64,000 nt of DNA, taken from positions 1 through 64,000 of the IMG/VR virus record IMGVR_UViG_3300048592_001371. The stretch is one strand, 5' to 3'. A model generated the notes under the pieces. It searched no databases, had not been told where the DNA came from, and worked only from the letters and a program-made list of their open reading frames with translations. The translations under genes were made by a program, and so were the position numbers. This stretch comes from a virus. This document shows positions 45,773 to 62,537 of this stretch, piece by piece. How positions within the stretch are numbered: the first letter of the stretch is position 1; the number at the start of each line of letters is the position of its first letter.

Positions 45773-45803
45773 AACGGGGTGGCTTTCCACCCCGTTACCT
45801 TTA
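45773..45803 (+). terminator. Rho-independent terminator closing tail module
   Basis: AACGGGGTGG and CCACCCCGTT form a perfect 10-bp stem with a CTTT loop, followed by ACCTTTATT. It separates the tail module from the enzyme block. The next gene starts 12 bases later, so the block may depend on read-through or an unseen promoter. The stem sequence matches that of the hairpin at 6614. Confidence 0.75.
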
Positions 45804-45814
45804 TTGGTACAGAA

Positions 45815-46543
45815 ATGTTGAGACTGTCCGAAATCTACAAACCTGTGTTCTCGGCAGATGATGTGAGACTGGTATCGGAAACATTCTGCCACTCACTCGC
45901 TCCCGGATACGCAGACATTATCGGCCGACTATCCAAAGGCCTGCAAGTCCGCTCTGCCTCTGATGCAGACCTTGACATGCTCAAGTATCTACGCGGACTT
46001 AACGTCCTCTCGTATGAGGACACTGCTCTCTCCAGCGAGAACCCACTCATGTACTGGCGCCTATTGGGTTACAGTACAGAGTACGTCCAGAAGCAAATCA
46101 AACACAATACAATTCGGGTACTAGGAGGGGACAACCCAGACATCGATGCCTTCTCAGAACAACTGGCCGCTCTGGGATGGACAATATGCGATGACAGTCG
46201 AGTACGGGTGATTCTGCTGAACAGCCAGGCTCAGATAGATGAAGCACTGTCGTTCTACGGTCTGCGTATGGCGACTATCCCAATAGTGCTAGATCGATTT
46301 CGCGCCTCAATTGGGCCGTTGTACTACCCCGGTTTGCTCGAATGGCCGAATCTGAGCAAACAAGCGGAAGCCTCTCCGGTCTACTTGAAAGAAGGGGCCG
46401 GACTGATTCCAGCGTACAAGTCGATTCAGCTAAGACTGGTTGCCTTGTACGTTGCAAGAATTCTGATGTGCCTTGAGGACATTGCGAGCTGTTTCCTAGA
46501 GCTCGATCTGACGACCATGCGAGTGAAGGAGCGACATGTCTGA
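45815..46543 (+). CDS. E1/ThiF-like (cyclodehydratase-partner-like) protein
   Basis: A 242-residue protein opening the enzyme block. The N-terminal 75 residues look like a winged-helix or peptide-recognition segment (DADLDMLKYLRGLNVLSYED). It continues with a Rossmann-like stretch (NTIRVLGGDNPDIDAFSEQL, RVRVILLNSQAQIDEALSF) and IGPLYYPGLLEWPNL. The IGPxxxPG element is a hallmark of the E1-like partner of azole-forming cyclodehydratases. The usual zinc cysteines after it and a YcaO gene are absent here. Similarity is judged by eye and modest. The start at 45815 is close behind the terminator with only GGTACAGA upstream. Confidence 0.35.
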   Translation: MLRLSEIYKPVFSADDVRLVSETFCHSLAPGYADIIGRLSKGLQVRSASDADLDMLKYLRGLNVLSYEDTALSSENPLMYWRLLGYSTEYVQKQIKHNTIRVLGGDNPDIDAFSEQLAALGWTICDDSRVRVILLNSQAQIDEALSFYGLRMATIPIVLDRFRASIGPLYYPGLLEWPNLSKQAEASPVYLKEGAGLIPAYKSIQLRLVALYVARILMCLEDIASCFLELDLTTMRVKERHV

Positions 46544-47450
46544 GATCACGAATTTCGACTTGTTCGTAGGGTACAATCAAAGGCCATGGACATTCTCTAC
46601 GAATCCTTCCGACAAGTTCATGGTCTGGTCGAAGCGCCTGAAGCGCAAAATCTTCCCCTTCCGAGACGAGCTAGCACAAGCGGCGCAAGAATTATCAGTA
46701 CGCGGACTAGGTCCCTTCTACGTTCTGTATTCTGGTGGCTACGACAGCGAAGCAATCCTAGCAGCCTTTCTGGAGAACGGTCTGCCTGTTGTCCCGATCA
46801 TGGTGCGATATACCGATGAGAGCAACTCGGAAGACTTTGAACACGGGCTAAACTACTTAGCCCACTACGAGATGTCTCCGATCATCTACGAGATAGATCT
46901 GGCGAAGTGGATACACTCACAGGAGTGTCGTGACCTAGCAGAGAAGGTGCAAGCCGGTGATCTAGCAACGACAGCCATCTACAAGGCTGTGCTAGATATG
47001 CCGCAACTGCGCGAAGGCTTCTTTATCATGGGTTTGCACGAACCAGCCATCTACGCCCAGGACACCGAAGAGAAGCGTGAATGGGTACTGCTGGAAGAGG
47101 AGAAGTGGTACGCACATCACAAATTCCTACTGGCCCACAATCTACGTGGGATAGGTGCCTTCATACACTACAGCCCGGAGCTTTACACGTCCTTCGTGGT
47201 CAATCCAGCGTACATGCGTGTGTATGCGAACATGTTCAATCCTGAGCTGTGGCAAGCCGAGTGGGTGAAGCATCAGTTGTTCTCAAAGTATCTGCGCTTG
47301 GAGCGTAGAGAAAAACGGACAGGGTTCGAAGCGATTCAAGGTGAGGTCAATCGTATCAACCACGAATGGATACGAGAGCACGAAGGATTGTGGGATAGGC
47401 ACTACGTGACGCCTGTCCTAGATTGGGTACGTGGAGTAGGCCACCTATGA
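46536..47450 (+). CDS. PP-loop ATP-dependent enzyme
   Basis: A 304-residue protein with the PP-loop SGGYDS (residues 66-71) in FYVLYSGGYDSEAILAAFLE, the ATP-pyrophosphatase signature shared by asparagine synthetase, GMP synthetase and QueC-type enzymes. It would adenylate a carboxylate, thiol or similar group and release pyrophosphate. It is more distant from the three asparagine-synthetase-like proteins downstream and lacks their GDGxD element. It overlaps both neighbours. The acceptor is unknown; amide formation is a reasonable guess from context. Confidence 0.65.
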   Translation: MSEITNFDLFVGYNQRPWTFSTNPSDKFMVWSKRLKRKIFPFRDELAQAAQELSVRGLGPFYVLYSGGYDSEAILAAFLENGLPVVPIMVRYTDESNSEDFEHGLNYLAHYEMSPIIYEIDLAKWIHSQECRDLAEKVQAGDLATTAIYKAVLDMPQLREGFFIMGLHEPAIYAQDTEEKREWVLLEEEKWYAHHKFLLAHNLRGIGAFIHYSPELYTSFVVNPAYMRVYANMFNPELWQAEWVKHQLFSKYLRLERREKRTGFEAIQGEVNRINHEWIREHEGLWDRHYVTPVLDWVRGVGHL

Positions 47451-47905
47451 ATATAGTCAAGATCACAAACGACAAAGACGTGATGCGTCTCATGCTGGAG
47501 GAAAAGCGACCTCTGCAACAGGTCTTTGGCGTAGAGAACGTCATGCGCGGCTACACTGACGAGCAAAGCGGCTACTTCGGCGTCTACAAAGAGCTCTGTT
47601 TGTCTAGTGCCTATCAGTGCTCGGCTTGGTCTGATGTCCTGTTCGTACATGACATCGTTGGAGCAATTCAGGATGTCTGGTTGCACATACGAAACGGACG
47701 CAACTTTGTAGCATACGTCCGAAAGGGTAACATGCCGAGCCTGGGGGAGCTAGAAGGTCTGTTTGGCCTTCCCGTCTTCGCCAACAGCACACGGAATTTG
47801 GACTACGCAATGCTCCATTCTCTGTTCAACTACGTTCTTCCTCAAGAGAACGGTTACGTTATAGCGAGCCAAAAATGGGACATTCCATTGATGATAAGCC
47901 TGTAA
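47447..47905 (+). CDS. hypothetical protein of enzyme block
   Basis: A 152-residue protein of unknown function (MNIVKITNDKDVMRLMLEEK). It contains two cysteines in LCLSSAYQCSAW and an aromatic, hydrophobic core. The ATG overlaps the previous stop, and the end overlaps the sulfotransferase by 31 bases, so it belongs to the same coupled operon. No motif recognised. Confidence 0.5.
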   Translation: MNIVKITNDKDVMRLMLEEKRPLQQVFGVENVMRGYTDEQSGYFGVYKELCLSSAYQCSAWSDVLFVHDIVGAIQDVWLHIRNGRNFVAYVRKGNMPSLGELEGLFGLPVFANSTRNLDYAMLHSLFNYVLPQENGYVIASQKWDIPLMISL

Positions 47906-48762
47906 TCATTTGCTCCTTCCCGAGGAGCGGCAGTACGTTGCTTCAACGATTGCTGAACACACATGACGATCTATGCATCTGGGGAGAGAACCTCGGTCTT
48001 CTGACAGCTATGCTAGACCAGATTGCAGCCTTGCGCTGGACGGGAACAGATCCCAAGACAGCGGCCCAAGTCAAACAATCTTCCGAATTTTCTCCGGTCA
48101 GCACTCCCTACACGGCTTTCGATCTGCAAGAAGCGTTCAAGAAACTCCTCGTCGGCTTTTACGCTAGAGGGTTGAAAGAGAATATACGCTGGGGCTACAA
48201 AGACCACAATCACTACTACCCATTCGATCTAATTGAGATCAACAAGATATTCCCCGGGGCTCAGTTCATCGTATTGAGAAGGAACGGTCCAGACTGTTGC
48301 ACGAAAGCTATATTGGCGCCTTGGGTGCGCGAGAAGATAGAAGGCACTCCGAGCCTGTTAGGAGTAGACGTGCGTGCCAGTATGGACAGCTTGGTCTCTT
48401 CCGTCATTCTCACCTATCTGCAATTCAACACCTTCGCTTCGAACGTCTACAAAAACAGAACAGACGTGAGGGTGATTGAGTACGAGGATCTGGTGCGAAG
48501 TCCTGAGCATGTGATCGAGCACTTGTCGCAATTCTTGAATCTACGGCAGGACGGCTGGAATATTGAAGCCTTCGAGACACAGCTATCAACGAAGCTGGGG
48601 AAAACGCCCAGTCAGGGAAGCTATGGCTTCATGACAGAAGAGTTGGTACGGGAGTACGTGGACAAGTGGTGGAGGAAACTGGTAGTAGAGGGCAACGTCG
48701 AACGGCGAGAGCGTGATCTTCGTTGGAACGTTGTGACGGGTAGACACTGGCGCTGGTACTGA
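47875..48762 (+). CDS. PAPS-dependent sulfotransferase, enzyme block
   Basis: A 295-residue sulfotransferase. The 5'-phosphosulfate loop is SFPRSGSTLL (residues 14-23), GYKDHN lies at 107-112, and the 3'-phosphate motif is LRRNGPDCCTKAI (134-146). It would move a sulfo group from PAPS to an unknown acceptor in the pathway. The start is the only ATG before the loop and lies inside the previous gene. It is not closely similar to the sulfotransferase at 36863 beyond the motifs. An APS kinase ends the same operon. Confidence 0.85.
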   Translation: MGHSIDDKPVIICSFPRSGSTLLQRLLNTHDDLCIWGENLGLLTAMLDQIAALRWTGTDPKTAAQVKQSSEFSPVSTPYTAFDLQEAFKKLLVGFYARGLKENIRWGYKDHNHYYPFDLIEINKIFPGAQFIVLRRNGPDCCTKAILAPWVREKIEGTPSLLGVDVRASMDSLVSSVILTYLQFNTFASNVYKNRTDVRVIEYEDLVRSPEHVIEHLSQFLNLRQDGWNIEAFETQLSTKLGKTPSQGSYGFMTEELVREYVDKWWRKLVVEGNVERRERDLRWNVVTGRHWRWY

Positions 48763-48769
48763 GGAAATC

Positions 48770-49189
48770 ATGACTTCTGTTCGTGTATCGCAAGAGAAAC
48801 TGAAAACAGGCTCGCTGGACGTGGCGGAACTGGTTCTGGAAACCCAGCTCGATCTAGCGCGTAGAAACATTACCGCTGCGTACTTCCCAATACGAGAGGA
48901 ACTGGACGAGACATTAGTTCTGCGCGCCATGAACGGAGAACTGGCGGCTGTTCTCGTTTGGCGAAAGTATGTCGACTCTATCTGGATCATCATAGCAGCC
49001 GTGAAGGATGGCTTCCGAGGGCAAGGACTGCATCAACTGCTGCATCAAGAACTGGACAAGGTAGCGCGCCAACTTGGCATCGGCGTCATTGAGACGTATG
49101 TCGGGACAGAGAACAAATCAGTGCTGCGGTCCTACGAAAAGATGGGTATTACGCCACAGATGTACTACATCAAGAAAAAGGTGCCGTAA
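48770..49189 (+). CDS. GNAT acetyltransferase, copy 1
   Basis: A 139-residue GNAT-fold acyltransferase. The acetyl-CoA motif A is R83-G-Q-G-L-H in FRGQGLHQLLHQ, and YEKMG lies at 122-126 where the catalytic tyrosine is usually found. It would acetylate an amine using acetyl-CoA. It directly precedes and is coupled to a radical SAM gene (TAATG). Two further copies lie at 50652 and 52542. Confidence 0.75.
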   Translation: MTSVRVSQEKLKTGSLDVAELVLETQLDLARRNITAAYFPIREELDETLVLRAMNGELAAVLVWRKYVDSIWIIIAAVKDGFRGQGLHQLLHQELDKVARQLGIGVIETYVGTENKSVLRSYEKMGITPQMYYIKKKVP

Positions 49190-50655
49190 TGCTGTTGGAG
49201 AACGTCGATCTGTTGCTCATTTCGGATTGCTACGAAACTCCGTATGTAAGGTATAGCGGCCCCTACGTCCTCGCTTCCTACCTTCGCAGGCATGGTCTGA
49301 GAGTGCAGGTAGTAGACTACTTTTCCCGCTTCACAGATACCGAGATAGAAACCATAGTAGACGTGTGCGTTGGCTCCAATACCAAGGCGGTAGGAGTATC
49401 GGATACATTCTCCGGCAAGCCCTTGCATGAGCTCGCAGATGGATCGACCTATGGTTGGCCCTTCTTCGAGAGGCATGACAGGATACGTCGCTTCATCGGC
49501 AATGTCAAGCGCAAGAATCCGAAAACGCGACTGTTGATGGGTGGGCAAAAGACCACTCAAGGACTAAGCGCCGGGTACATAGACACATACTTCCATGGGT
49601 TCGCCGAACAGTCACTTCTCGCTTATCTACAAAGCGAAGGACATGAAGTTCCACGTGTCGTCAAAGAAGCCACCATCCCGAATTGGAAAGACATCCCAAC
49701 CATTCATCACGAGTCCGACAACATCCTCGAAGGAGAAACGCTGCCGTTAGAAGTGTCTCGTGGCTGTATCTTCAACTGCAAATTCTGCTCATACCCCCGT
49801 CGAAATGCCAAGGACTTGAACTACATAAAGTCGGAGGAAGCTATCTACCAGCAGCTTCTGCACAACTATGAGCAATATGGCACTACCTGTTACACGCTAC
49901 TGGACGATACGCACAACGATTCGAAAGCCAAACTCGAAACCATTCGGAACGTTCTAGATCGTCTGCCGTTCAGCATCGAATTTGCTACCTATCTGCGGCT
50001 CGATCTGATAGCCAAAGATATGTCCACCGCGGAGTTGCTCATACGAAATGGACTACGTGGAGCCTTCTTCGGAATAGAGACACTACACAAGGAAGCGGGA
50101 CGACTCGTTGGAAAAGGCCTAGAGCCTGACGAAACGAGAAAGGCGCTGCGAAAATTACGGGAGTTGTGGGGAAACGAAGTAGGAACGCAAGGTGCTTTCA
50201 TCCTAGGCTTGCCGAAACAGCCAGAAGCTGATGTGATACTGATGTGCGAAGAGGTCTGCGACCCTTCCTTCCCGTTACATGGCCCAATATTCTTTCCGTT
50301 GATCATGTATCCAGGCAGGACAAATCCCTCACCGTTCGAGAAAAATCCGTCCCTATACGGGATACGCTTGGAGGAAGGGGATCGGCACGGGTATTGGCAT
50401 AATAGTGAAACCGGCATGGACTTCGAACGCGCGATAGAGATTCAAAACGAATACACGACGCGCATCTACCGCAATCACAGACGCCAATGTGGAGGTTTCT
50501 TGCCCATCATGGCAGTTAATCTAGGTATCAAAGCGCGGGACTTAATCGGCATGCCCGCGAGGGTCGCTCATAAGAAGTACAATATGCAGTCGAGGGAGTC
50601 TCCCTATTTGGCAAAGTACAAAGCAAAGGTTCTGGGAACAACGGAGGGGCAATGA
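49189..50655 (+). CDS. B12-type radical SAM enzyme, copy 1
   Basis: A 488-residue enzyme. The N-terminal 150 residues look like a cobalamin-binding Rossmann domain (YSGPYVLASYLRRHGLRVQV, LLMGGQ), without the classic DxHxxG. The radical SAM cluster ligands are C193, C197 and C200 in SRGCIFNCKFCSYPRR. It would make a 5'-deoxyadenosyl radical for methylation, C-C bond formation or another alkylation. It starts MLLENVDLLL, as do copies 2 and 3, on a TAATG overlap with the GNAT gene. Substrate unknown. Confidence 0.85.
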   Translation: MLLENVDLLLISDCYETPYVRYSGPYVLASYLRRHGLRVQVVDYFSRFTDTEIETIVDVCVGSNTKAVGVSDTFSGKPLHELADGSTYGWPFFERHDRIRRFIGNVKRKNPKTRLLMGGQKTTQGLSAGYIDTYFHGFAEQSLLAYLQSEGHEVPRVVKEATIPNWKDIPTIHHESDNILEGETLPLEVSRGCIFNCKFCSYPRRNAKDLNYIKSEEAIYQQLLHNYEQYGTTCYTLLDDTHNDSKAKLETIRNVLDRLPFSIEFATYLRLDLIAKDMSTAELLIRNGLRGAFFGIETLHKEAGRLVGKGLEPDETRKALRKLRELWGNEVGTQGAFILGLPKQPEADVILMCEEVCDPSFPLHGPIFFPLIMYPGRTNPSPFEKNPSLYGIRLEEGDRHGYWHNSETGMDFERAIEIQNEYTTRIYRNHRRQCGGFLPIMAVNLGIKARDLIGMPARVAHKKYNMQSRESPYLAKYKAKVLGTTEGQ

Positions 50656-51074
50656 AGGTAACATTCAGGACGGAGAAGGTATTTGAGTTGAACAACGAGG
50701 TCATAAAATTCATACTGTTGTCCTATGTCGAACTCCTGGATAGAAGTTTGTCCGGTATGGGAATTCCCTTCGCGAATACCGACGACGTTCTCATGGCTAC
50801 GAACGAAAAAGGGGACTTGACCGGCTGTATTGTGCTGAGGAAAACGAACGACGCCATCCCTACCTACTGGGTGATCCTAACGGCTGTGAAGCAAGAGTTC
50901 CGTGGTAAGGGACTGCATAAGCAAATGCACAGTCGCCTAGATGCGATTGCTCGGGCCAACGGCATCCAGTACATCTCATCCTACGTCTCTCCGAACAACA
51001 AGGAAAGCTTGAGGGCGTATGAGAAATTCGGCGCAGAACAGTCTATGATAAAGATCAACCGGAAGGTCTCGTAA
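50652..51074 (+). CDS. GNAT acetyltransferase, copy 2
   Basis: A 140-residue GNAT protein, paralogous to copy 1. RGKGLH at 84-89 is the acetyl-CoA loop and YEKFG at 123-127 the C-terminal motif. It lies between two radical SAM genes and overlaps both (ATGA before, TAATG after). Duplicated GNAT-radical SAM pairs suggest one chemical step repeated on different positions or substrates. Confidence 0.75.
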   Translation: MKVTFRTEKVFELNNEVIKFILLSYVELLDRSLSGMGIPFANTDDVLMATNEKGDLTGCIVLRKTNDAIPTYWVILTAVKQEFRGKGLHKQMHSRLDAIARANGIQYISSYVSPNNKESLRAYEKFGAEQSMIKINRKVS

Positions 51075-52540
51075 TGCTGTTAGAGAACGTCGACTTGCTA
51101 ATCGTTAGCGATTTCGCCAATCCCATCTACAAGTCACGCTACAGCGGTCCATACGTTCTCGCCTCCTACCTTCGCAGATTGGGTCTGCGCGTTCAGATAG
51201 TTGATTACATCTCCGAATTCTCGGACGAACAACTGCGGGATATCGTAGACGTTTGTGTCGGGAAGAATACCAAGGCCGTTGGCATTTCTGACACCTTCAG
51301 TTACTTCCAGACACACATGAACGCCAATCGAGTGAATGAGTTCACGATAGCGGGTTGGCCTTTCCTACGAGAGGAGCGGATCAAGGCCTTTGTCGCTAGA
51401 ATCAAGGGTATCAACCCCGATACGCAGATCATCATGGGTGGTGCTAAGTCGACGCGCTTCGATCAACCCGTTCCCTACGTAGACGTTCTATTCAGAGGAT
51501 TTTCCGAAGCGTCCCTAGCAAAGTATCTGATGTCCCGTCACCTGGGTTTGAACAGTTCGTCCTTCGTCGAGGAGCTTCCGATAGATGATTGGATAGACAC
51601 GGTCACTCATATGAGTCCGGAAGACAACCCCTTGGTCAACGAAACCGTTCCTTTGGAAATCTCCCGCGGATGCATATTCAACTGTAAATACTGTTCATAC
51701 CCACGTAAGGGAGCGAAGGACTTCGATTACATCAAGACGGAGGAATCGCTCTACCAAACGCTCTTTACGAACTACTCGGAGTTCGGCATTCGTCGCTACA
51801 TGCTGACGGATGATACGCACAACGATTCGATGTTCAAGCTTGAGCGCTTGCATCGCGTCACTCAACGGCTTCCCTTCAAGATCGAGTATAGCTCGTACAT
51901 CCGAGTCGACTTGCTTCACCGCTATCCTGAGATGATAGACCTGTTGAAAGAGATAGGTCTGAAAGGAGCGATGATGGGGATAGAAACCTTGAATTGGGAA
52001 ACGGGCAAGATAATCGGCAAAGGATTGCAGCCTAAGAAAACGATTGAAACGCTCCAGCTCTTACGTGAGAAGTGGGGCGACACGATCGGTACCCAAGGTA
52101 TGTTCATTCTTGGTTTGCCGCGCCAATCATACAAGGATGCTATCGCGATGTGTGAACGCATAAGCGCAGAAGACTTCCCATTGCATGAGGCACTATTCTT
52201 CCCTCTGTATTTCTTGACCCAGGCTCGCGTCAAGTCGGCTTTCGATATGGACTACGAAAGTTTCGGGTACAAGGTAGAGGGAAAAACGTGGGTCAACGAT
52301 CAAGGGATGACGTCCGAACAGGCAACAAAGCTGGCTAGGTATTACACGAACAAGAACAGAAAGAGCGGGCGTGAGAAGTTCGGTGGCAATCTGCCATTAC
52401 AGCTAGCCAATAGCGGATATGTCGTCGACGACTTGATAGGGAAACCGTTGGGCTCGTTTTTCGAGTCTGAGGAAGCAAAGGGACGCACTACTGAATATGT
52501 GCGTCGATACAAACGAAAACTTTTTGACGTAGAGGAATGA
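51074..52540 (+). CDS. B12-type radical SAM enzyme, copy 2
   Basis: A 488-residue paralogue of copy 1 with the same N-terminal start (MLLENVDLLIVSD) and layout. Cluster ligands are C200, C204 and C207 in SRGCIFNCKYCSYPRK. The N-terminal domain has YSGPYVLASYLRRLGLRVQI. Conserved DDTHNDS, GIETLNWETGKIIGKGLQ and IGTQGMFILGLP segments are shared by all three copies. Coupled to the GNAT gene before it. Confidence 0.85.
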   Translation: MLLENVDLLIVSDFANPIYKSRYSGPYVLASYLRRLGLRVQIVDYISEFSDEQLRDIVDVCVGKNTKAVGISDTFSYFQTHMNANRVNEFTIAGWPFLREERIKAFVARIKGINPDTQIIMGGAKSTRFDQPVPYVDVLFRGFSEASLAKYLMSRHLGLNSSSFVEELPIDDWIDTVTHMSPEDNPLVNETVPLEISRGCIFNCKYCSYPRKGAKDFDYIKTEESLYQTLFTNYSEFGIRRYMLTDDTHNDSMFKLERLHRVTQRLPFKIEYSSYIRVDLLHRYPEMIDLLKEIGLKGAMMGIETLNWETGKIIGKGLQPKKTIETLQLLREKWGDTIGTQGMFILGLPRQSYKDAIAMCERISAEDFPLHEALFFPLYFLTQARVKSAFDMDYESFGYKVEGKTWVNDQGMTSEQATKLARYYTNKNRKSGREKFGGNLPLQLANSGYVVDDLIGKPLGSFFESEEAKGRTTEYVRRYKRKLFDVEE

Positions 52541-52541
52541 C

Positions 52542-52976
52542 ATGGAACTAAAAATCCATAGTATTTCCATCATGCGCGTGTCAAACGATGTGCTGTCATT
52601 CATCCTTCGTACAATGGCCGATTTGGTAGAGGACGGACACTCGGGAAGAGGAATCGCTGTTACCAATGCGGACCACGTAGTCGTAGCAAGGCGTTCTGAC
52701 AATGGCGAACTCGTAGGAGTGCTTGTCTACGTAATAAATAGGCCGAAGGATTTGCTGTGGGTAAATCACGCCGCCGTCAAAGAGCAATATCGCGGACAGG
52801 GGATACATCGAAAGATGCATGCGATGCTCAAAGACATCGCCCGAAAGGAGAATGTCTACGAAGTTGGTTCCTACGTCTCTATTGAAAACAGGGCGAGTGT
52901 AGGGGCGCACAGCAAACGACCCGGCGTCAAGTTCCCAATGATGCGAGTATCCGTGCCCGTTACAGAGGACAAGTAA
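52542..52976 (+). CDS. GNAT acetyltransferase, copy 3 (divergent C-terminus)
   Basis: A 144-residue GNAT protein. The acetyl-CoA loop RGQGIH is intact at 84-89, but the YEKxG motif of copies 1 and 2 is replaced by AHSKRPGVK, so the usual catalytic tyrosine is missing. It may use another base, bind without catalysis, or be degenerating. AGAGGA precedes the ATG. It is coupled to the helical-domain protein that follows. Confidence 0.65.
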   Translation: MELKIHSISIMRVSNDVLSFILRTMADLVEDGHSGRGIAVTNADHVVVARRSDNGELVGVLVYVINRPKDLLWVNHAAVKEQYRGQGIHRKMHAMLKDIARKENVYEVGSYVSIENRASVGAHSKRPGVKFPMMRVSVPVTEDK

Positions 52977-53602
52977 TGAAACAATTCCGACGATTTTGGT
53001 TCTGCGTTGATCTACGCGACAATACTGTGCTGTATCTGGAGCACGACTTCGGTCACAATCAGCCTCCTGGAATAGACCCGGAGGCAAACGTCTTCCCTCT
53101 TGCGGGTATGTTCCCGACCGATTTTACACCGGCGACGTGTGCGAAATTCGAGTACGTCGATGGGGCACAAGTAGCATTGAAGAAGGAGAAGCTAACCCAG
53201 CGCCAAAGTCTGTTGCGCCAAAAATACGTAGCTTTGGCAAAGATCATGAAAGTGGTCTACTGGGGCAGAACGAAGGTCAACAAAGGTTGGCTGCAGCAGG
53301 ACGCCGTCTACAAAATGAAGTTGGACGCGGCTGTTGCCTATCTCAACAAAGAAGAGAATCCTCCGGGCCTAGCAATGCTGCAACATGAAGCCGATTTGCG
53401 GAAAACGACCGTCTATGCGATGGCGAAAGCAATAACCATCGCGGCGCAGGATAACGAGCGCATCCTGATCGACACGGAGAACTTTCGTCAGGAGTGGACT
53501 CAAAAAATCCGAGCTTGCTCAAGTCTGCTAGAGCTGCAGCAAGTGATGGATACTCTCCGCAGCGAAAGCTACATTCCGGTCACTATGGGGTTCCTGCAAT
53601 GA
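52976..53602 (+). CDS. helical-domain family protein, copy 2
   Basis: A 208-residue protein of unknown function in the family of the tail-module protein at 45108. It starts with strands (FWFCVDLRDNTVLYLEHDF) and has a C-terminal helical domain (YKMKLDAAVAYLNKEENPPG, TVYAMAKAITIAAQDNERIL, CSSLLELQQVMDTLRSE). It overlaps the asparagine-synthetase-like gene by ATGA. The same order is found twice more downstream. It may be a carrier, substrate or partner of that enzyme, or a tail protein modified by it; this is inference. Confidence 0.5.
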   Translation: MKQFRRFWFCVDLRDNTVLYLEHDFGHNQPPGIDPEANVFPLAGMFPTDFTPATCAKFEYVDGAQVALKKEKLTQRQSLLRQKYVALAKIMKVVYWGRTKVNKGWLQQDAVYKMKLDAAVAYLNKEENPPGLAMLQHEADLRKTTVYAMAKAITIAAQDNERILIDTENFRQEWTQKIRACSSLLELQQVMDTLRSESYIPVTMGFLQ

Positions 53603-54621: not shown

Positions 54622-56078
54622 TGCTGTTGGAGAACGTTGATCTACTGATCCTTAATGAGTTCTCTGATCCGTACTTCAAAGTGAGGTACTCGGGACCTTA
54701 CGTGCTTGCTTCGTACCTGCGTAATCGAGGATACCGTGTTCAAATACTCGACTATGTTTCGCATTTCACGGATGCTCAGTTGGTAAAGGCGCTACGAGTA
54801 TGCGTCGGCCCGAAAACGTTGGCTGTTGGCCTAGCCGGAACCTTCACGGTTTCCTTGAAGGCGACGTATTCGGCCAAGGATACGCCGGAGGCACGTACTG
54901 GATGGCCACTATGTCAGCCACGGCGCATCGACTTGTTCCTCGACACTGTACGGTCTATCAACCCAGAGACAAAGATCATCATGGGTGGGCATAGACACGG
55001 GTATGACTACCCGAGAGACGTGGACACCCTGTTCTTGGGGTTTTCCGAGGTATCTCTGTTCAATTACCTCGAGACTCTAAGAATAAACAACAGCTGGGTT
55101 CCCAAAGTCGTCCAGGAAGAAAAGCAAGAGGGTTGGAACAGAGACGTTTTTCTGTACTCGGAGGAGGACAACATCCTTCCCGGCGAGACGCTGCCTCTTG
55201 AGATTTCTCGCGGTTGTATTTTCAACTGCAAGTATTGCACGTATCCAAGACGCGGGGCGAAGGATTTCACCTACGTCAAAGACGAGGATGTGATACGTAC
55301 TCAACTGTCACACAACTATGACAAGTTCGGGGTTCTGAATTACACGCTGACGGATGACACACACAACGACACTGAAGAAAAACTGAAACGTCTCATTCGT
55401 GTTCAGAAGGAGTTGGGCATTCAAATACGCTATTCGGCGTATGCTCGTCTGGACCTCATTCATACCTTCCCACACACCGCGGACCTTCTATTCCAGGCCG
55501 GTATGCGTGGTCCCATGTTTGGCATCGAGACGCTGAATTGGGAAGCCGGGAAGATGATTGGCAAGGGCTTGCACCCAGACAAAGTCCGTGCGACATTGCA
55601 CCGACTACGCGCAGAATGGGGAGACGAAGTAGGCACGGAGGGGATGTTCATTCTCGGCTTGCCTAAGCAAAGTCGGTTAGACATGGTACGAATGGCCAAG
55701 GAACTGATGGATCCTTCGTTCCCTTTGCATTACGTGATTTTCTACGCCCTGATCATACAACCGTTGAAGGAAGACTCGGCCTTCAATCGAGAACCCGAGA
55801 AGTTTGGGTACGATACTTCAGTCAAAGCGGCGGGGAACTGGGTACGTGATGATGGTTTTACTGCTGACGAAGCGCGGCAGATGCAAATACTCTATACCAA
55901 TCAGATGATCGAGACGCAGCGAAACAAGTTTGGTGGTGTTCTACCGTTCTTGGTATCGAACGGTGGACGCTCTCTGCAAAGCATGATTGGAAAGCCATTG
56001 GAGTTGTCGCAGCGTGATTACATTGACGCGACACGCTACATGGAACGTTATCTAGCCAAGGTGTTTTCGGAGGACTAA
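54621..56078 (+). CDS. B12-type radical SAM enzyme, copy 3
   Basis: A 485-residue paralogue of copies 1 and 2 with the same start (MLLENVDLLILNE). Cluster ligands are C199, C203 and C206 in SRGCIFNCKYCTYPRR. The N-terminal domain includes YSGPYVLASYLRNRGYRVQI and KIIMGGHRHG. The ATG at 54621, on the TAATG overlap with the ligase gene, is chosen because it matches the starts of the other two copies; a start five codons upstream is also open. Confidence 0.85.
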   Translation: MLLENVDLLILNEFSDPYFKVRYSGPYVLASYLRNRGYRVQILDYVSHFTDAQLVKALRVCVGPKTLAVGLAGTFTVSLKATYSAKDTPEARTGWPLCQPRRIDLFLDTVRSINPETKIIMGGHRHGYDYPRDVDTLFLGFSEVSLFNYLETLRINNSWVPKVVQEEKQEGWNRDVFLYSEEDNILPGETLPLEISRGCIFNCKYCTYPRRGAKDFTYVKDEDVIRTQLSHNYDKFGVLNYTLTDDTHNDTEEKLKRLIRVQKELGIQIRYSAYARLDLIHTFPHTADLLFQAGMRGPMFGIETLNWEAGKMIGKGLHPDKVRATLHRLRAEWGDEVGTEGMFILGLPKQSRLDMVRMAKELMDPSFPLHYVIFYALIIQPLKEDSAFNREPEKFGYDTSVKAAGNWVRDDGFTADEARQMQILYTNQMIETQRNKFGGVLPFLVSNGGRSLQSMIGKPLELSQRDYIDATRYMERYLAKVFSED

Positions 56079-56942
56079 ATGTATTGGAACAGGTTGTTTG
56101 ACGACGTGGTTGACTTCACCCAGCATCGGTATTACTCACAGTTCGAGAATCTGAAATCCACGAACCCGCAGAATTTTCGCTGCGACCCACTAGCCCCGAG
56201 TCCTGTTCTTTTCTTGGGTTCCTGTGACATGGGTGGTCCTGTCAATAACGCAGACGAAGTGTGGCCGCGACGCGTGTATAGAAAACTATGTGAGTCGCAG
56301 GGGCGGTTCCCGTACATGGCTTTGTCCAAGATCAGCTCTGGACTAGAAGCCACGTTGCGTCGACTGTACATCTACTGCGAACTCGTAGGTCCGCCGAAAG
56401 TGCTCTATATGGTCATGCCTCGGCCAGTAAGCATTGAAATTCCTGTGAAGCGGTCGATGACAGATCCTCTCGTTGGAGTAACGGACATAGAGCGATACTT
56501 GACGTTCCTCGGCAAACTCCCAACAATCACAACCGAAGAGGTGTTCCTCTTCAAGAAGATTTCTGAGGTACTGATCGGTTTGTCTGAGAATGAGTCGTAC
56601 CAACTGTACCAGTTTGAAAAAGGGACCGCCTTCTTGCAGACGCTCTGTCGTTTGCACAATATCGAGTTACGCTGGACGCCCAATCTTAGTGCCACTGCCA
56701 TAGAGTACTACGCCAAATACTTTTCTCTGTTCCTGAGGGAGAATGATTTCATGCGGCAGACGTGTCTGGGTGTTGGCAAGGCTCTGGATTTCTCAGGCGA
56801 CGGATCTGTGGGCGACGAGACACAGGGCGTTATCGCTAATCTGATGCTGGATGGCAAACCCGGTGAATTTTCTCTAGACGCAACAAAGAAGCAGCTGGTC
56901 GAGAACTTGGAATTCAAACGCACAACCCTGGAGGAAAAATGA
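56079..56942 (+). CDS. SGNH-hydrolase-like protein
   Basis: A 287-residue protein. SPVLFLGSCDMGGPVNNADE followed by VWPRRVYRKL and VLYMVMPRPVSIEIP follows the layout of phage SGNH/GDSL-like proteins, where a GxS block, a WP segment and a late P-x-R segment recur. The catalytic histidine block near the C-terminus is not clear (DGSVGDETQGVIANLM has no His). It may be an esterase, an acyltransferase or an inactive binding protein. CGGAGGA precedes the ATG, and the stop overlaps the next gene. Confidence 0.35.
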   Translation: MYWNRLFDDVVDFTQHRYYSQFENLKSTNPQNFRCDPLAPSPVLFLGSCDMGGPVNNADEVWPRRVYRKLCESQGRFPYMALSKISSGLEATLRRLYIYCELVGPPKVLYMVMPRPVSIEIPVKRSMTDPLVGVTDIERYLTFLGKLPTITTEEVFLFKKISEVLIGLSENESYQLYQFEKGTAFLQTLCRLHNIELRWTPNLSATAIEYYAKYFSLFLRENDFMRQTCLGVGKALDFSGDGSVGDETQGVIANLMLDGKPGEFSLDATKKQLVENLEFKRTTLEEK

Positions 56943-57547
56943 TACCACTACACGTAGCAAATCTCAATACACGGGACTATGTCCATGGCACGTCTATCAT
57001 GACAGGGCTGACGCGCTTCCTACTAGAAAATCACGATACCGTAACGGAATTCACCTTCCGTCTGTACAAGAAGCTCCTGACTTTGCCGCTACTGAGCATT
57101 ACCGAGAAACAGGTCGACAATCCAAAGGACTACGTCGCTACGGGTTCCTTCATGGGAAACGGCTCGCAATGGTTCTTCCAAATTCAGCCTTCAGTCCTTC
57201 CCGTGGAGCACGTTCTGCACATTGACGAGTCCGCTCTAGTAAATAGGATAGAACTGAGAGGAGACAGGTACGTCATAGACGTTGAAGAAAAAGACGACGT
57301 CTTTGTCACCTGGAATGCCATATCAAAGACGCACAACCTGAGAGTGTTCAGCGAGCTCGGCGTGACAAAGCCGGGTGGCCAGACATGGCTAACAGGACAA
57401 ACATTCAAAGACTTGTCCTTCTTGAGAACTCGGCCTGCGACATTGGGAAATTCGGTCGCGTTTCAGAGACTGTCCGAGCGCTGTATCAAACATGACATGT
57501 ACTACGACGAGGCAATAGTCGGAGACAAGACTATAGTCTATGCCTAA
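56939..57547 (+). CDS. hypothetical protein of enzyme block
   Basis: A 202-residue protein of unknown function starting MIPLHVANLNTRDYVHGTSI. Two Trp-containing beta stretches (GSQWFFQIQPSVLPVEHVL, KPGGQTWLTGQTFKDLSF) suggest a mainly beta, possibly double-psi or cupin-like fold, though no metal motif is visible. It is coupled to the SGNH-like gene by ATGA. No family recognised. Confidence 0.5.
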   Translation: MIPLHVANLNTRDYVHGTSIMTGLTRFLLENHDTVTEFTFRLYKKLLTLPLLSITEKQVDNPKDYVATGSFMGNGSQWFFQIQPSVLPVEHVLHIDESALVNRIELRGDRYVIDVEEKDDVFVTWNAISKTHNLRVFSELGVTKPGGQTWLTGQTFKDLSFLRTRPATLGNSVAFQRLSERCIKHDMYYDEAIVGDKTIVYA

Positions 57548-57556
57548 GGGGACATA

Positions 57557-58165
57557 ATGCTGCAACTTGCTATCGATGTGACGGATGGTACGGTCATATA
57601 TGCCTTACCGGATGCGTACCGAATCTGCATGCCCAAATTGCGGACATGGATAGAAAACATCATACTCGATGTTCGGCTTCCCAAGGATTTCCCGATACGC
57701 GCATTAGGTTCACAGAATTTTGTCCGTATAGGGCTGGAAATTCAACGACGGGTGGATAGCGTCCCGGAAGCAGCTATGCTTCTGAATCTGAAATACCACT
57801 CCGTGGACAAAGTGAACATGCTGGTTAATGGACATCGCTTTGCAACGATGAACAAGTTGCTGTTGCAACCACGAGTGTACGAGCTAAAAATAGCGGAGGC
57901 TGAAGCCGTATTGAAGTCGGGCTCCAGTTTGGAGCCCGTAGAAAACGCGCCTATGCTGATAGAGGAAGCAAAAGCGCGGGGCCTATCTGTACGAGATGTT
58001 GCCAAGACTGTTCTACTGGCCAGAGACGATCAGGACGACATGCTGAAAAGGACGGAAGGTATGCGAATATCCGCCACTATTCGCATCTCCGAGGCAAAAA
58101 CACCGCAAGAGGTTTTCGAGATAATGTCGGGCTTCGAGGAAAGTTTCCACAACCGAGGCCTATGA
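57557..58165 (+). CDS. helical-domain family protein, copy 3
   Basis: A 202-residue protein clearly homologous to copy 4 at 59166: both have LAxDxxDxTxIYAxPxxYR, an LPxxFPIRxLxSQxFV stretch, ALLNxKYxxxD, and NGxRFAxxNKLLxQxRxYExK. The C-terminal helical domain runs to TPQEVFEIM. It overlaps the following asparagine-synthetase-like gene by ATGA. GGGGA precedes the ATG. Unknown role; the fixed pairing with the ligase is the main clue. Confidence 0.55.
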   Translation: MLQLAIDVTDGTVIYALPDAYRICMPKLRTWIENIILDVRLPKDFPIRALGSQNFVRIGLEIQRRVDSVPEAAMLLNLKYHSVDKVNMLVNGHRFATMNKLLLQPRVYELKIAEAEAVLKSGSSLEPVENAPMLIEEAKARGLSVRDVAKTVLLARDDQDDMLKRTEGMRISATIRISEAKTPQEVFEIMSGFEESFHNRGL

Positions 58166-59169
58166 TGAGACCGTTGATCTACATAGGTACTCCTAGATAT
58201 CGAAACAGGGTTTTGCGTACTCTGTACCAAGTTCTGCATATCGACGTACCGATGTCTCGTTGTGCTTATCAGGAGTGCAACGTCGTCCCAGTCAGTCATG
58301 CTTTCCCTTTGATGTCCGAACATCGAATAGCGCCGTGTGCCCAGCCGCTTTATGAATTAGAACGCTTGGTCCTAGACAGGGCGACACAGCTTGTGTCGGA
58401 ATCGTCTCAGACGGGAAGGCCCATTTGCGTTAAATACTCCGGTGGTCTGGATAGTATGTTGGCACTCCTGGCCTTCGAACGAATTTCCGCAGAATACAAA
58501 GTCTTCCTGACGCCCAACTCCATCAAAGAAAATCCCACCGTCTTCAAAAAGTTCATTGCCCATCGTGAGTATTTTCACGCGAACGACCCTTCTGTCTTTG
58601 ACGGGCTCGTGATAACAGGAGACGGAGGGGATGCTCTATTTCTAGACGCTATCGTTAAAGGGCCGCAGATGAGGCATGGCGATGCGGTATTGGACTGGGA
58701 CTGGAAAGACGGTTTCGTGAAGGGTATGTGGGGCACGCCAGAAGAGAACAAGTTTGTCTTGGGACTACTAGAGCCGGCGATGCACGATTGTCCCTGGCCA
58801 GTGAAGACGGTTCGGGACTTCTTCGCTTGGACTGGCCTAGCGATCTTCTACCAACCGGAAGTATTGCGTTGGCTTCCTACACTACAGGATCCAAAGAAGA
58901 ACTGGCCTTGGGTCCGGCCGTTCTTTGCAACGAAGGAATTCGTGGAGTGGTCTCTTGGGCAAGAGCCGAAAATCAAGTATCCAAGTACGTCTGACTACAA
59001 ACCAACATTCCGAAAACTGTGTGAGAAATTTTCGGGACTGGATCTATCGGACATGAGGAAAGACTTCTCGCTAGGTAAGACGAGGGGTGCTGCTCCTATG
59101 GTGGTAGGCGTGATGGAAGACTTGACACACGTCACCACCGAAGGAATCGAAAAACTGGTAAAGGAATGA
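58162..59169 (+). CDS. asparagine-synthetase-like amide ligase, copy 2
   Basis: A 335-residue synthetase-only asparagine synthetase homologue. It has SGGLDS at 93-98, GDGGDALF at 153-160 and a C-terminal YKPTFRKLCEKFSGLDLSD-MRKDF segment that holds the catalytic lysine position. The N-terminus carries PMSRCAYQECNVVPV in place of the glutaminase domain, nearly the same as copy 3. It lies between two helical-domain genes and overlaps both. A second ATG follows directly and could also serve as start. Confidence 0.78.
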   Translation: MMRPLIYIGTPRYRNRVLRTLYQVLHIDVPMSRCAYQECNVVPVSHAFPLMSEHRIAPCAQPLYELERLVLDRATQLVSESSQTGRPICVKYSGGLDSMLALLAFERISAEYKVFLTPNSIKENPTVFKKFIAHREYFHANDPSVFDGLVITGDGGDALFLDAIVKGPQMRHGDAVLDWDWKDGFVKGMWGTPEENKFVLGLLEPAMHDCPWPVKTVRDFFAWTGLAIFYQPEVLRWLPTLQDPKKNWPWVRPFFATKEFVEWSLGQEPKIKYPSTSDYKPTFRKLCEKFSGLDLSDMRKDFSLGKTRGAAPMVVGVMEDLTHVTTEGIEKLVKE

Positions 59170-59801
59170 ATATGGGCGCTCCGAATCTCTATCAACTCGC
59201 GGTTGATACACACGACAATACCATCATCTATGCGATGCCGGAAAGTTATCGGTTGTCCCTGCCAGATTTGAGAACCTGGGTGGAGAACAAACTGTTCTAC
59301 GGAAGCTTGCCTGAAGGCTTTCCAATACGCAATCTGGATAGTCAAAAGTTTGTGCTATCTGAGGGAAAGGTCCTAGCACGGAAGGACGAGGTTCGGGAAG
59401 GTGTCGCTTTGCTGAACGTGAAGTATTGGGCGATCGATCAGGTTCTAATGATCATCAACGGACAACGCTTCGCGGTAACAAACAAGCTGTTGATGCAGGA
59501 TAGGATATACGAGGCAAAGGTCGAGGAAGCGCGTCTGATTCTGGCAAGACAAGACGAGGAGCTCAGGAAGTCACACTTTGAGACATCTTGTCCTATGCTG
59601 TATGCTGAGTCCGAGGACAAAGGACTGAGTCTAAACGTCGTAGCAAAAACAGTGATGGTAGCATACGAAGAACAAATGTCTCGCTTGAAGAAAACGGAGA
59701 TCATGCGAATGGCGATAACGAACAAAATCGCCAATGCCGAGACAGAGGAACAAGTTCGGGCTCTGTTGAAGGACGTCAAACTCTATTTCTACACGAGATG
59801 A
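59166..59801 (+). CDS. helical-domain family protein, copy 4
   Basis: A 211-residue paralogue of copy 3, with LYQLAVDTHDNTIIYAMPES, LPEGFPIRNLDSQKFVL and GVALLNVKYWAIDQVLMIIN. The C-terminal helices (YEAKVEEARLILARQDEELR, LNVVAKTVMVAYEEQMSRLK, AETEEQVRALLKDVKL) match the phage tail-associated type. Its start overlaps the stop of ligase copy 2, and its stop overlaps the start of copy 3; an ATG two codons later is an alternative start. Confidence 0.55.
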   Translation: MNMGAPNLYQLAVDTHDNTIIYAMPESYRLSLPDLRTWVENKLFYGSLPEGFPIRNLDSQKFVLSEGKVLARKDEVREGVALLNVKYWAIDQVLMIINGQRFAVTNKLLMQDRIYEAKVEEARLILARQDEELRKSHFETSCPMLYAESEDKGLSLNVVAKTVMVAYEEQMSRLKKTEIMRMAITNKIANAETEEQVRALLKDVKLYFYTR

Positions 59802-60805
59802 AACTCCTCAGCTACCACAACAATCCGATGTTCAAGAACAGGACGTTGAATACATTCTTCAACGTGCTCAACGTCGAGGCACCTATGTCTAGGTGTTCTT
59901 ACCAAGGATGCAATGTCCTACCTGTTCATCACTTGTTGCCTCCAATGTCGGAGTATGCAATACGTGTCGTTTCGCAGCCGGGTGCCGAGCTGGAGACGAT
60001 AGTCGAAGCAAGGGTGCGCGAGCTGGTCAACGAAGCACGCCAATTTGATCTGCCAATTCACCTCAAGTACTCTGGTGGTTTGGACAGCCTGCTCGTGCTG
60101 CTCATGTTACATAGGTGTGACGCGGATTTCGTTGTCTATCTGACTCCCGATTCCATCAAAGAGAACCAAGACGTATTCAAGAGATATGTCTCGAACCGAG
60201 ATTTCAAACACGTCAATTGTCCTAGTCTGTTCGACGGACTGATAATTTCAGGAGACGGGGCCGATGCTCTGTTCATAGACATGCTGGCAACAAGCGTAGT
60301 TTCCAAACACGGAGAGACGTCCTTGGATTGGAAATGGGAAGAAGGCTTTGTGAAAGGCATGTACGGAACGGAACAAGAGAACAACGAAGTGCTCGAATTG
60401 CTCTTTCCCGCTCTCGACGAATGTCCTTGGGAGGTAGAGACAGTTCGGGACTTCTTCGCTTGGACTGGCCTAGCGATCTTCTACCAGCACGAGACGTATC
60501 GTTGGCTTCCGACCATGCCTAATCCGGCAGAGAATTTCGCGCGCTTCCGACCGTTCTTTCCAACGAAGGATTTCGTCGAATGGTCTTTGGGACAGGAAAC
60601 GAAGGCCAAGTTTCCGAGCTTCACCGATTACAAACCGGCATTTAGGAAGCTGTGCGAAAAGCTAACGGGTCTTGACTTTTCCTACATGCGGAAAGACTTT
60701 TCGCTGTGGAAGACCGTAGCAGGTAATCGTCTGCATCCCGGTGTCAAAGATGATCTCTCGATTGCAACTATCGAAGAAATAGAACAGGCCGCTATCTATC
60801 CATGA
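59798..60805 (+). CDS. asparagine-synthetase-like amide ligase, copy 3
   Basis: A 335-residue paralogue of copy 2 with SGGLDS at 92-97, GDGADALF at 152-159, TVRDFFAWTGLAIFYQHETY and the C-terminal YKPAFRKLCEKLTG then MRKDFSLWK. The DNA of copies 2 and 3 is also similar around the TVRDFFAWTGLAIFYQ region, so the duplication is fairly recent. It overlaps the PLP decarboxylase by ATGA, which could supply the amine it uses. Confidence 0.78.
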   Translation: MKLLSYHNNPMFKNRTLNTFFNVLNVEAPMSRCSYQGCNVLPVHHLLPPMSEYAIRVVSQPGAELETIVEARVRELVNEARQFDLPIHLKYSGGLDSLLVLLMLHRCDADFVVYLTPDSIKENQDVFKRYVSNRDFKHVNCPSLFDGLIISGDGADALFIDMLATSVVSKHGETSLDWKWEEGFVKGMYGTEQENNEVLELLFPALDECPWEVETVRDFFAWTGLAIFYQHETYRWLPTMPNPAENFARFRPFFPTKDFVEWSLGQETKAKFPSFTDYKPAFRKLCEKLTGLDFSYMRKDFSLWKTVAGNRLHPGVKDDLSIATIEEIEQAAIYP

Positions 60806-61908
60806 CCGCAAATCTTCTCGATATGTACAAGCCCTTCGTCGAGGACTATCAAGGACCGTGTCTTGTCATCGACCGGGCCTCGATTTTCGAGCGCATAAAA
60901 CGCTTCCTTCGCGCGGTGCCGAACGTCCTCCCGTATTATGCAATGAAGGCGAACCCGCATCCCGGTGTTCTACAGACGGTTTCGGACGCGGGTATAAACT
61001 TTGACGTTGCCTCGGCAGACGAGATTCTCTTGCTGGAGCGTACTGGTCTGAACGTGCGTCATGTGCTGTTCAGCAATCCTGTCAAGAAACCAAGCGACAT
61101 CGCTTACGCAGCTTGGAATGGCATTCAGAACTATGCAATAGATAGCCAAGAGGAAATGTTCAAGATACTGTCTATCGTGCCGCACGCCAAGATGTACGTT
61201 CGTTTGTCTTTGCCACCCAGCACCGCGGATTCCCCACTCAATGACAAATTCGGTATTGACTTGTATGAGCTAGAAGGCCTGCTCCGGATAGCTAAAACGG
61301 TCAAGGCGGACATCTGTGGAGTAACATTCCACGTTGGCTCTCAATGTCGCTATCTCGACAGTTGGGGAGACGCTATAGGAATTGCTCTCAAAGCCGGCGA
61401 GATGCTTCTGCGCGAAGGCTTTCGGTTCGAGTTGCTCAACCTGGGTGGCGGCTTTCCCGTTTCCTACACGCGTCCAATACCTGAGATCGAAGACATTGGT
61501 CTGGTGCTGGATAGGCTGTTGCAAGATCTGCCGAAAGAAACACGAGTGGTTGCCGAGCCGGGACGACACCTGGTTGCGGAATCAGGCATGCTGATCTGCC
61601 AAGTAATAGCAACCTCTACGAGGAAGGGTACTCGTTGGGCCTACTTGGATGTCGGTACATACAACGGATTGGTAGAAACGATCCAAGGCGTTGAGTGTAA
61701 TTTCTGCTATACGCAAGAAGGCGACACGGATCTTTGGAATGTAGCGGGTCCAACGTGTGATTCAAACGACATCATGTCTAAGAGGGTCCGTCTACCCCGG
61801 AATCTGGCAACTGGAGATTTTCTCTATGTGCCGAATGCCGGGGCCTATTCGGTAGCCAGTGCAAGTACATTCTGCGGAGCACACATTCCGGAGGTTATCC
61901 TATTGTGA
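60802..61908 (+). CDS. PLP decarboxylase, ornithine/diaminopimelate type
   Basis: A 368-residue alanine-racemase-fold decarboxylase. PLP-binding Lys49 lies in YYAMKANPHP, with HVGSQC at 177-182, GGGFP at 215-219, EPGRHLVAES at 252-261, GPTCDSND at 316-323 and AGAYS at 346-350. The GPTCDS form fits ornithine or lysine decarboxylases better than diaminopimelate decarboxylase. The expected product is a di- or polyamine such as putrescine, but a peptide-linked or modified substrate cannot be excluded. It overlaps both the ligase before and the APS kinase after it. Confidence 0.85.
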   Translation: MTANLLDMYKPFVEDYQGPCLVIDRASIFERIKRFLRAVPNVLPYYAMKANPHPGVLQTVSDAGINFDVASADEILLLERTGLNVRHVLFSNPVKKPSDIAYAAWNGIQNYAIDSQEEMFKILSIVPHAKMYVRLSLPPSTADSPLNDKFGIDLYELEGLLRIAKTVKADICGVTFHVGSQCRYLDSWGDAIGIALKAGEMLLREGFRFELLNLGGGFPVSYTRPIPEIEDIGLVLDRLLQDLPKETRVVAEPGRHLVAESGMLICQVIATSTRKGTRWAYLDVGTYNGLVETIQGVECNFCYTQEGDTDLWNVAGPTCDSNDIMSKRVRLPRNLATGDFLYVPNAGAYSVASASTFCGAHIPEVILL

Positions 61909-62429
61909 ATCATGGACGCGTACTGTGGCTGACAGGTTTGAGTGGGTCGGGCAAGACCACTCTGGCTTGGGCACTTGACGAATTCCTACAACGCAAAGGA
62001 ATTGCTACTTCTGTCATCGACGGAGACGAGATACGCAAAACCCTGTGTAAGGATCTGGGGTATACGGCGGAGGACAGAACAGAGAACCAGCGGCGCATCG
62101 CAGGACTGGCGAGAAAACAAGCCGATCTCGACCTCACAGTAATCGTGGCCACCATCAGCCCGAGATTCAAACATCGGGTACTGGCCGAAGAGATAATCCA
62201 CCCGATCGACTTCTACGAAATCTACCTAGCCACTCCCCTCGAAGAATGCGAGAGGCGCGATCCGAAAGGGATGTACGCCAAAGCCAGAAGAGGGGAGATC
62301 AGTGCCTTCACCGGAGTTACCGATCCGTATGAGGAACCCGAACACCCCGATGTGAAAATCCCTCCGTCTTTCTCCCTCCGAGAAGCACTTCAAGCAATCG
62401 AACGGTCTGTCCGTTTCACGATTCTCTAG
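61905..62429 (+). CDS. cysC: adenylylsulfate (APS) kinase
   Basis: A 174-residue APS kinase. The Walker A motif is GLSGSGKTT (residues 11-19), followed by DGDEIRKTLCKDLGYTAED and RTENQRR, and the C-terminal GMYAKARRGEISAFTGVTDP loop with YEEPEHPDV. It phosphorylates APS to PAPS, the sulfate donor of the sulfotransferases at 36863 and 47875. APS itself would have to come from the host ATP sulfurylase, as no such gene is in the window. Start is GTG within the overlap with the decarboxylase, with GGAGG upstream. It ends the enzyme block. Confidence 0.92.
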   Translation: MNHGRVLWLTGLSGSGKTTLAWALDEFLQRKGIATSVIDGDEIRKTLCKDLGYTAEDRTENQRRIAGLARKQADLDLTVIVATISPRFKHRVLAEEIIHPIDFYEIYLATPLEECERRDPKGMYAKARRGEISAFTGVTDPYEEPEHPDVKIPPSFSLREALQAIERSVRFTIL

Positions 62430-62500
62430 TCTCTCACTAATTTCCCTTTGCGTTGCATTGAGTCTCCATTCACCACCCCTCCTCCTCTTGGTGTGGTTTT

Positions 62501-62537
62501 AAGGCCGGCCGGACTTTGTCTTACCGGCCTTCTTTCT
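62501..62537 (+). terminator. Rho-independent terminator closing enzyme block
   Basis: AAGGCCGG and CCGGCCTT form a perfect 8-bp stem around a 15-base loop, followed by CTTTCT. It lies 70 bases after the APS kinase stop. The remaining 62430-62605 gap holds a pyrimidine-rich stretch and the promoter-like motif at 62553. Confidence 0.7.

Follow-up and report, generated by a model that had tools for sequence, protein, structure and literature searches.

A possibly peptide-tailoring enzyme cassette beside the tail genes of large uncultivated phages

We analysed a block of enzyme genes at positions 45815-62429 of a 64,000-nucleotide stretch of uncultivated phage DNA (the window), which comprises bases 1-64000 of IMG/VR record IMGVR_UViG_3300048592_001371 (123,553 bases; G000 below, possibly an incomplete genome). 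Our tentative reading is that the block is a recurrent, modular cassette of large uncultivated phages that tailors peptides in the manner of pathways for ribosomally synthesized and post-translationally modified peptides (RiPPs), with a tail-associated protein or a late peptide as the likeliest target. A preliminary description had proposed a phage-borne biosynthetic or modification gene block, and this much is borne out by the family identities of the genes, their packing and their co-occurrence elsewhere. These features, the duplications within the block and its conserved position are observed; from them we infer a substrate, an order of reactions, a product and a benefit to the phage, as well as the membership of all 20 genes in one pathway.

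The block consists of 20 open reading frames (ORFs), all on the + strand and with intergenic spacing of -31 to +9 bp, which agrees with the 20 tightly packed genes of one direction described previously. Its genes are intact and packed as one unit, and catalytic motifs are intact in the enzymes where checked. The features of the block and its flanks are listed below from left to right (SAM, S-adenosylmethionine; RRE, RiPP recognition element; APS, adenosine 5'-phosphosulfate; PAPS, 3'-phosphoadenosine 5'-phosphosulfate; PLP, pyridoxal 5'-phosphate; ODC, ornithine decarboxylase; pLDDT, predicted local distance difference test).

45108..45758, +: H0, tail-end protein and homologue of Ha, Hb and Hc; the cassette probably begins here (phmmer 3.5e-8 against Hc, 2.9e-5 against Hb; in the relative G036 an H gene likewise follows the collar gene)
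45773..45796, +: 10-bp hairpin between H0 and E1, terminator-like, with a T-poor tail (z -4.27)
45815..46543, +: E1-like protein with a probable N-terminal RRE (leader-peptide-binding) domain (Foldseek PDB matches; homologues at L135 and L137)
46536..47450, +: PPa, PP-loop enzyme (QueC-like, N-type), SGGYDS (Pfam QueC 0.012; PADLOC QueC 9.5e-5)
47447..47905, +: protein for which no relatives were found
47875..48762, +: PAPS-dependent sulfotransferase, PRSGST loop (Sulfotransfer_3 3.4e-21)
48770..49189, +: GNAT a (PF00583 4.6e-7)
49189..50655, +: radical SAM a, probably B12-dependent (PF04055 8.8e-13)
50652..51074, +: GNAT b (PF00583 7.2e-11)
51074..52540, +: radical SAM b, probably B12-dependent (PF04055 6.1e-16)
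52542..52976, +: GNAT c (PF00583 3.7e-9)
52976..53602, +: Ha, H protein paired with ligase PPb (phrog_21671 2.7e-7)
53599..54621, +: PPb, AsnB-like synthetase without glutaminase domain (motifs SGGLDS, GEAGDQLF)
54621..56078, +: radical SAM c, probably B12-dependent (PF04055 1.7e-13)
56079..56942, +: protein previously called SGNH-like, a name supported by no profile library
56939..57547, +: protein for which no relatives were found
57557..58165, +: Hb, H protein paired with PPc (phrog_21671 1.8e-4; AlphaFold pLDDT 82)
58162..59169, +: PPc, AsnB-like synthetase (motifs SGGLDS, GDGGDALF)
59166..59801, +: Hc, H protein paired with PPd, 44% identical to Hb
59798..60805, +: PPd, AsnB-like synthetase (motifs SGGLDS, GDGADALF)
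60802..61908, +: PLP-dependent amino-acid decarboxylase resembling ornithine/lysine decarboxylases, with the catalytic Lys and Cys motifs (PF02784 1.5e-49; PDB ODC 2e-52)
61905..62429, +: APS kinase (makes PAPS), full length with P-loop (PF01583 7.8e-55; PDB CysC 6e-47)
62500..62532, +: terminator-like hairpin, then CTTTCT (z -3.6)

All four PP-loop enzymes proposed for the block (46536, 53599, 58162 and 59798) are clear by motif, each carrying SGGxDS. PPb, PPc and PPd also carry a GxxxDxLF motif of the asparagine-synthetase type, which makes these three AsnB-like by motif, and they belong to a phage protein family in which most members show it. The N-terminal glutaminase domain is absent from the AsnB-like ligases. 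The best PF00733 match among 15 members of the family (E 0.0073) did not reach the cut-off, and a profile comparison of the PPb-d family with Escherichia coli AsnB gave a weak match centred on the PP-loop. A QueC identity of the block PP-loop enzymes was rejected, as PPa scored 15.5-15.9 bits against PF06508 (cut-off 22) and PPb-d are AsnB-like by motif.

Each H gene of the block directly precedes a ligase gene (Ha-PPb, Hb-PPc and Hc-PPd, three of three). The H proteins had been described as three non-catalytic helical proteins. The helical part is present in the model of Hb, but so is a beta domain, and the tail gene 45108 encodes a fourth homologue, so that the block may begin at 45108, outside the limits first drawn. 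Fold matches to the Hb model come from phages, among them DUF4376-domain proteins and proteins from Motura (176 aa) and BcepSauron (214 aa), with no match in the PDB. By their lengths, the latter two would correspond to genes that directly follow the tail collar genes in Motura and in the sister phage BcepSaruman. By sequence comparison, the H proteins are tail-gene paralogues paired with AsnB-like ligases.

This pairing recurs elsewhere. We searched IMG/VR with pattern scans from which the best 80 loci were kept, so the frequencies given here are not those of a census, and the contigs may include host sequence. Relatives were found on 88 contigs for the radical SAM enzymes, 18 for the AsnB-like ligase and 315 for PPa; those of the radical SAM enzymes were recovered with an alignment-based scan, since the patterns of the single-protein scan were too specific and matched nothing. 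A scan with H alone had no match in IMG/VR, yet H relatives turned up beside PP-loop genes. Among the 144 non-redundant loci from all scans, an AsnB-like ligase immediately follows H in 12 of 13 (P ~3e-15 if the neighbour were random among ~20 genes), to which the three pairs in the block can be added. The 80 kept PPa loci, duplicates included, held a radical SAM gene in 29 cases, a ligase in 18, H in 11 and E1 in three, and the E1 scan matched only loci already found by the other scans. Five loci (L186, L187 and L191-L193) share the order PPa, radical SAM, H, ligase. We also observed an AsnB-like PP-loop gene together with a cupin-like gene among the structural genes of small phage contigs (L110, L111 and L112).

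The position of the block is shared with a relative as well. Upstream lie fibre and collar genes, with 43416 matching collar-like genes in four cultured relatives, and the gene to the right matches the annotated Rz-like spanin of PhiXhv-12 (E 9e-4), in keeping with the placement between tail and spanin genes in the preliminary description. Two flanking terminators had also been proposed: both hairpins fold significantly better than shuffled sequence, but the T-poor tail of the upstream one makes its identity as a terminator likely rather than demonstrated. The nearest cultured matches of the window phage's baseplate protein are in PhiXhv-12/Ep032 (35.5%), BcepSaruman and Motura, and that of the uncultivated phage G036 is 45% identical to it, with syntenic head-tail genes. 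In G036, the slot after the collar gene begins with H, a 2-oxoglutarate (2OG) oxygenase, E1, GNAT-like genes, a desaturase, PPa, short-chain dehydrogenases/reductases and further 2OG oxygenases, and continues with a radical SAM gene, nitroreductase, GNAT, PhyH oxygenase, aminotransferase, second PPa and GNAT (some of these names were assigned from sequence by eye). G036 also encodes five members of the Asp/Asn-hydroxylase family; this class and that of the nitroreductase are known in peptide tailoring. G037, a different phage, carries E1, GNAT-like genes, desaturases, two PPa genes and a GNAT between fibres and spanins. No block family was present in the examined region of the four cultured relatives, and the content of their slots is unrelated. 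With a core shared with G036, other genes differing and the cultured relatives unlike either, the slot keeps a core while its remaining content varies. We read the cassette as modular, fast-changing and possibly RiPP-like. Five fibre-like proteins of the window (22106, 23659, 25675, 26453 and 40831) share an N-terminal motif, approximately DTVTHLPAxWANDVDALIYDVF, that is also found in G036 fibres.

These searches bear on a rival explanation, namely that independent auxiliary genes piled up in a variable slot between tail and lysis genes and form no single pathway. The variable slot, with its unrelated content in four cultured relatives, fits this explanation, as does mosaic acquisition suggested by the G+C content of the block, which is among the lowest of the genome (rank 3 of 214 windows). 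Furthermore, the two unassigned proteins (47447 and 56939), 56079, the sulfotransferase and the decarboxylase were not found with the core in other loci. Conserved pairs and gene orders in unrelated phages, tandem paralogue modules and the core common to G036 and G037 speak against it, and we consider it distinctly improbable. The block is not isolated: the condition that the preliminary description gave for its own refutation, that the genes never co-occur elsewhere, does not hold. The core families were found together in other uncultivated phages, where part of the gene order is kept, and in the matching slot of a relative.

Internal duplication accounts for part of the block. The GNATs, the H proteins and the AsnB-like ligases each form paralogous sets, and the three radical SAM enzymes form one clade (support 100/100) within a largely virus-borne family of ~80 sequences. 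Most paralogue pairs diverge least at codon position 2, more at 1 and most at 3, which indicates that the copies are under purifying selection. The three radical SAM enzymes first reported (49189, 51074 and 54621) each have CxxxCxxC and PF04055 above the cut-off (1e-12 to 6e-16). Their labelling as B12-type agrees with their nearest NCBIfam models, which are B12-radical SAM families, but all scores lie far below the family cut-offs (72 bits for radical SAM b against its nearest model, the PhpK P-methyltransferase), and the B12-binding domain PF02310 (E 0.0075-0.029) is below the Pfam cut-off. The DxHxxG motif was not seen in the alignment. Cobalamin dependence is likely, with moderate support from these sequence matches. 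PHROGs holds no family for the block radical SAM enzymes, and their sole strong relative in bacterial genomes (L091) is distant and lies on a 6-kb contig, possibly viral, of a metagenome-assembled Bdellovibrionaceae genome.

The remaining enzyme assignments were confirmed by Pfam: three GNATs (48770, 50652 and 52542), the sulfotransferase (47875), the ODC-like PLP decarboxylase (60802) and the intact APS kinase (61905). APS kinase produces PAPS, the sulfotransferase donor, and this kinase and sulfotransferase are therefore a biochemically coherent pair. A second sulfotransferase gene is located outside the block, among the tail fibre genes (36863-37639, +; PF13469 1.1e-14, phrog_27463 4e-33).

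The top PDB matches of the E1-like protein model in Foldseek are almost all RiPP proteins: LynD (7.8e-4), McbB, ThcOx, the TbiB1 RRE, the PbtF RRE and MccB. The E1-like label has moderate support at the level of fold, and no sequence-profile match was found in Pfam, NCBIfam and other profile libraries. The first 60 residues are modelled with pLDDT of ~58-82 in ten-residue blocks. From the model, we regard the protein with moderate confidence as a leader-peptide-binding (RRE-type) protein.

Several observations weigh against peptide tailoring. The E1 model has low confidence overall (mean pLDDT 50). YcaO (PF02624) is absent from seven genomes (G000, G036, G037 and four others) in which controls were detected, and the block has no intergenic space for a separate precursor peptide gene; a precursor could still be an overlapping small ORF or a domain within a larger phage protein. 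In L187 and L193 the module sits among nucleotide-metabolism genes, not fibres. Among the annotated neighbours of phage PPa genes, fatty-acid desaturase-like genes are the most frequent (17 of 120 sampled in L134-L213), and other loci also have FabA, AMP-binding, ATP-grasp and FabG-like genes; the desaturase, FabA, AMP-binding and ATP-grasp neighbours would suit lipid or small-molecule chemistry. Some PPa loci adjoin transporter genes (TctC, DctP), so PPa cannot be regarded strictly as a tail gene of phages.

An alternative is that the cassette produces a free small molecule, namely an amine, lipid or lipopeptide that carries amide, methyl, acetyl and sulfate modifications. Such a compound would act against the host envelope or rival phages, superinfection exclusion being one example. 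We consider such a small-molecule or lipid product nearly as likely as the tailoring of a peptide or protein. The decarboxylase, sulfotransferase, APS kinase and GNATs fit this chemistry, as do the lipid-type neighbours of the related PP-loop loci, and the second-best NCBIfam match of the radical SAM enzymes is a lipid-biosynthesis B12-radical SAM protein. Marine myophages are also reported to have host-recognition islands in which fibres are mixed with enzymes thought to change the host surface (PMC7029224). Nonetheless, an E1/RRE-like protein and dedicated H partners would be unusual for lipid pathways, and the window block itself contains no desaturase or acyl-carrier gene.

We give very little weight to a further alternative, in which the block would hypermodify phage DNA, for example by elaborating a 7-deazaguanine base. 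The same genome encodes QueD-like and QueE-like proteins (G000 75744-76217 and 80042-80830; L007 and L008), PPa is QueC-like, and PLP and GNAT enzymes take part in known thymidine hypermodification pathways. However, these que genes are 13-18 kb from the block and suggest a separate 7-deazaguanine pathway, PPb-d are AsnB-like rather than QueC-like by motif, and the block lies among late virion and lysis genes; we know of no role of RRE-like or tail-paralogue proteins in base modification. A candidate DpdA or tRNA-guanine transglycosylase at 77176-78681 of G000, suggested by its SGGFQ motif, had no PF01702 match and was not confirmed.

Returning to peptide tailoring, we propose that the cassette was inserted after the tail fibre/collar genes in the window phage and in G036. 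The E1-like/RRE protein would recognise a peptide stretch within a phage-made polypeptide, with the H proteins serving as adaptors or substrates, one for each AsnB-like ligase. The ligases would activate a carboxylate as an acyl-AMP and link it in amide bonds, with the product of the decarboxylase or a similar amine as the probable partner, while the B12-radical SAM enzymes may methylate, the GNATs acetylate and the PAPS-fed sulfotransferase sulfate the peptide or its side chains. The likeliest target would be a tail-associated protein or a late-infection peptide, and the effect might be altered adsorption or virion protection. A more specific version, in which lytic phages use a RiPP-like RRE/E1 and H-ligase system to hypermodify proteins associated with their own tails, or a peptide carried on the tail, by amide ligation, C-methylation, acetylation and sulfation, giving a chemically variable receptor-binding or protective coat, is rather unlikely. 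If the core acts as a unit, it would represent a widespread, undescribed class of biosynthetic machinery in uncultivated phages, in which enzymes typical of natural-product clusters would let a phage chemically modify a peptide, its own virion or its host. The conserved H-ligase pair is a small, directly testable biochemical unit.

Known systems resemble the block in part. With the RiPP systems that use E1/RRE proteins (thiazole/oxazole-modified microcins, TOMMs, such as microcin B17, and cyanobactins; Ocin-ThiF) it has in common, with moderate support and at the fold level, a probable E1-like protein with an RRE-like N-terminus, as well as tailoring by radical SAM enzymes, GNATs and ATP-using amide ligases, and a nitroreductase in the G036 version. 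Unlike them, it has no YcaO or visible precursor peptide gene, is phage-borne beside tail genes and contains H-ligase pairs; TOMM membership was rejected for lack of YcaO. PPb-d share the SGGxDS and GxxxDxLFG motifs of asparagine synthetase and lasso cyclase-type PP-loop ligases but lack the glutaminase domain and are each preceded by an H gene. The radical SAM core is shared with cobalamin-dependent methyltransferases (PhpK, ladderane B12-radical SAM, BzaD and HpnJ), the nearest NCBIfam models, whereas the block enzymes score far below their cut-offs and belong to a largely virus-borne family. The H proteins match the fold of DUF4376-like tail-adjacent phage proteins but not Pfam DUF4376 by sequence, and they differ in being present as three copies embedded in an enzyme operon. 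An anti-phage defence function was rejected, as a defence-family scan of ten block proteins (PADLOC) returned only generic matches (QueC 9.5e-5 and PDC-M51A 5e-10) and none to a specific defence family.

Among phages, a T4-like environmental genome with 12 radical SAM genes has been reported (PMC5332604). The pelagimyophage host recognition cluster, in the part of its description used here, is a hypervariable island of tail fibres and radical SAM cassettes ascribed to host recognition or surface change (PMC7029224). It shares with the block a fibre/collar-adjacent position and a content that varies among relatives, but it lies between VrlC and gp14 of T4-like phages, whereas the block lies between collar and spanins in a phage related to Motura, BcepSaruman and PhiXhv-12, and that part describes no E1, H, AsnB-like ligases or sulfation for the cluster. 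Our literature searches turned up neither such a system nor any account of E1, H-ligase pairs or sulfation in phages. A nucleotide search with the block had no match in cultured phages, a collection that may omit records very near the window's genome, and tblastn of the block radical SAM, PP-loop and H proteins against deposited phages (50,697 records) found none, also when repeated with core-enzyme relatives from other loci. Because the literature and the deposited phages show no equivalent, and PHROGs no family for the radical SAM enzymes, we place the block among the fibre-adjacent phage enzyme islands as a variant, with a real chance that it is a new kind of system.

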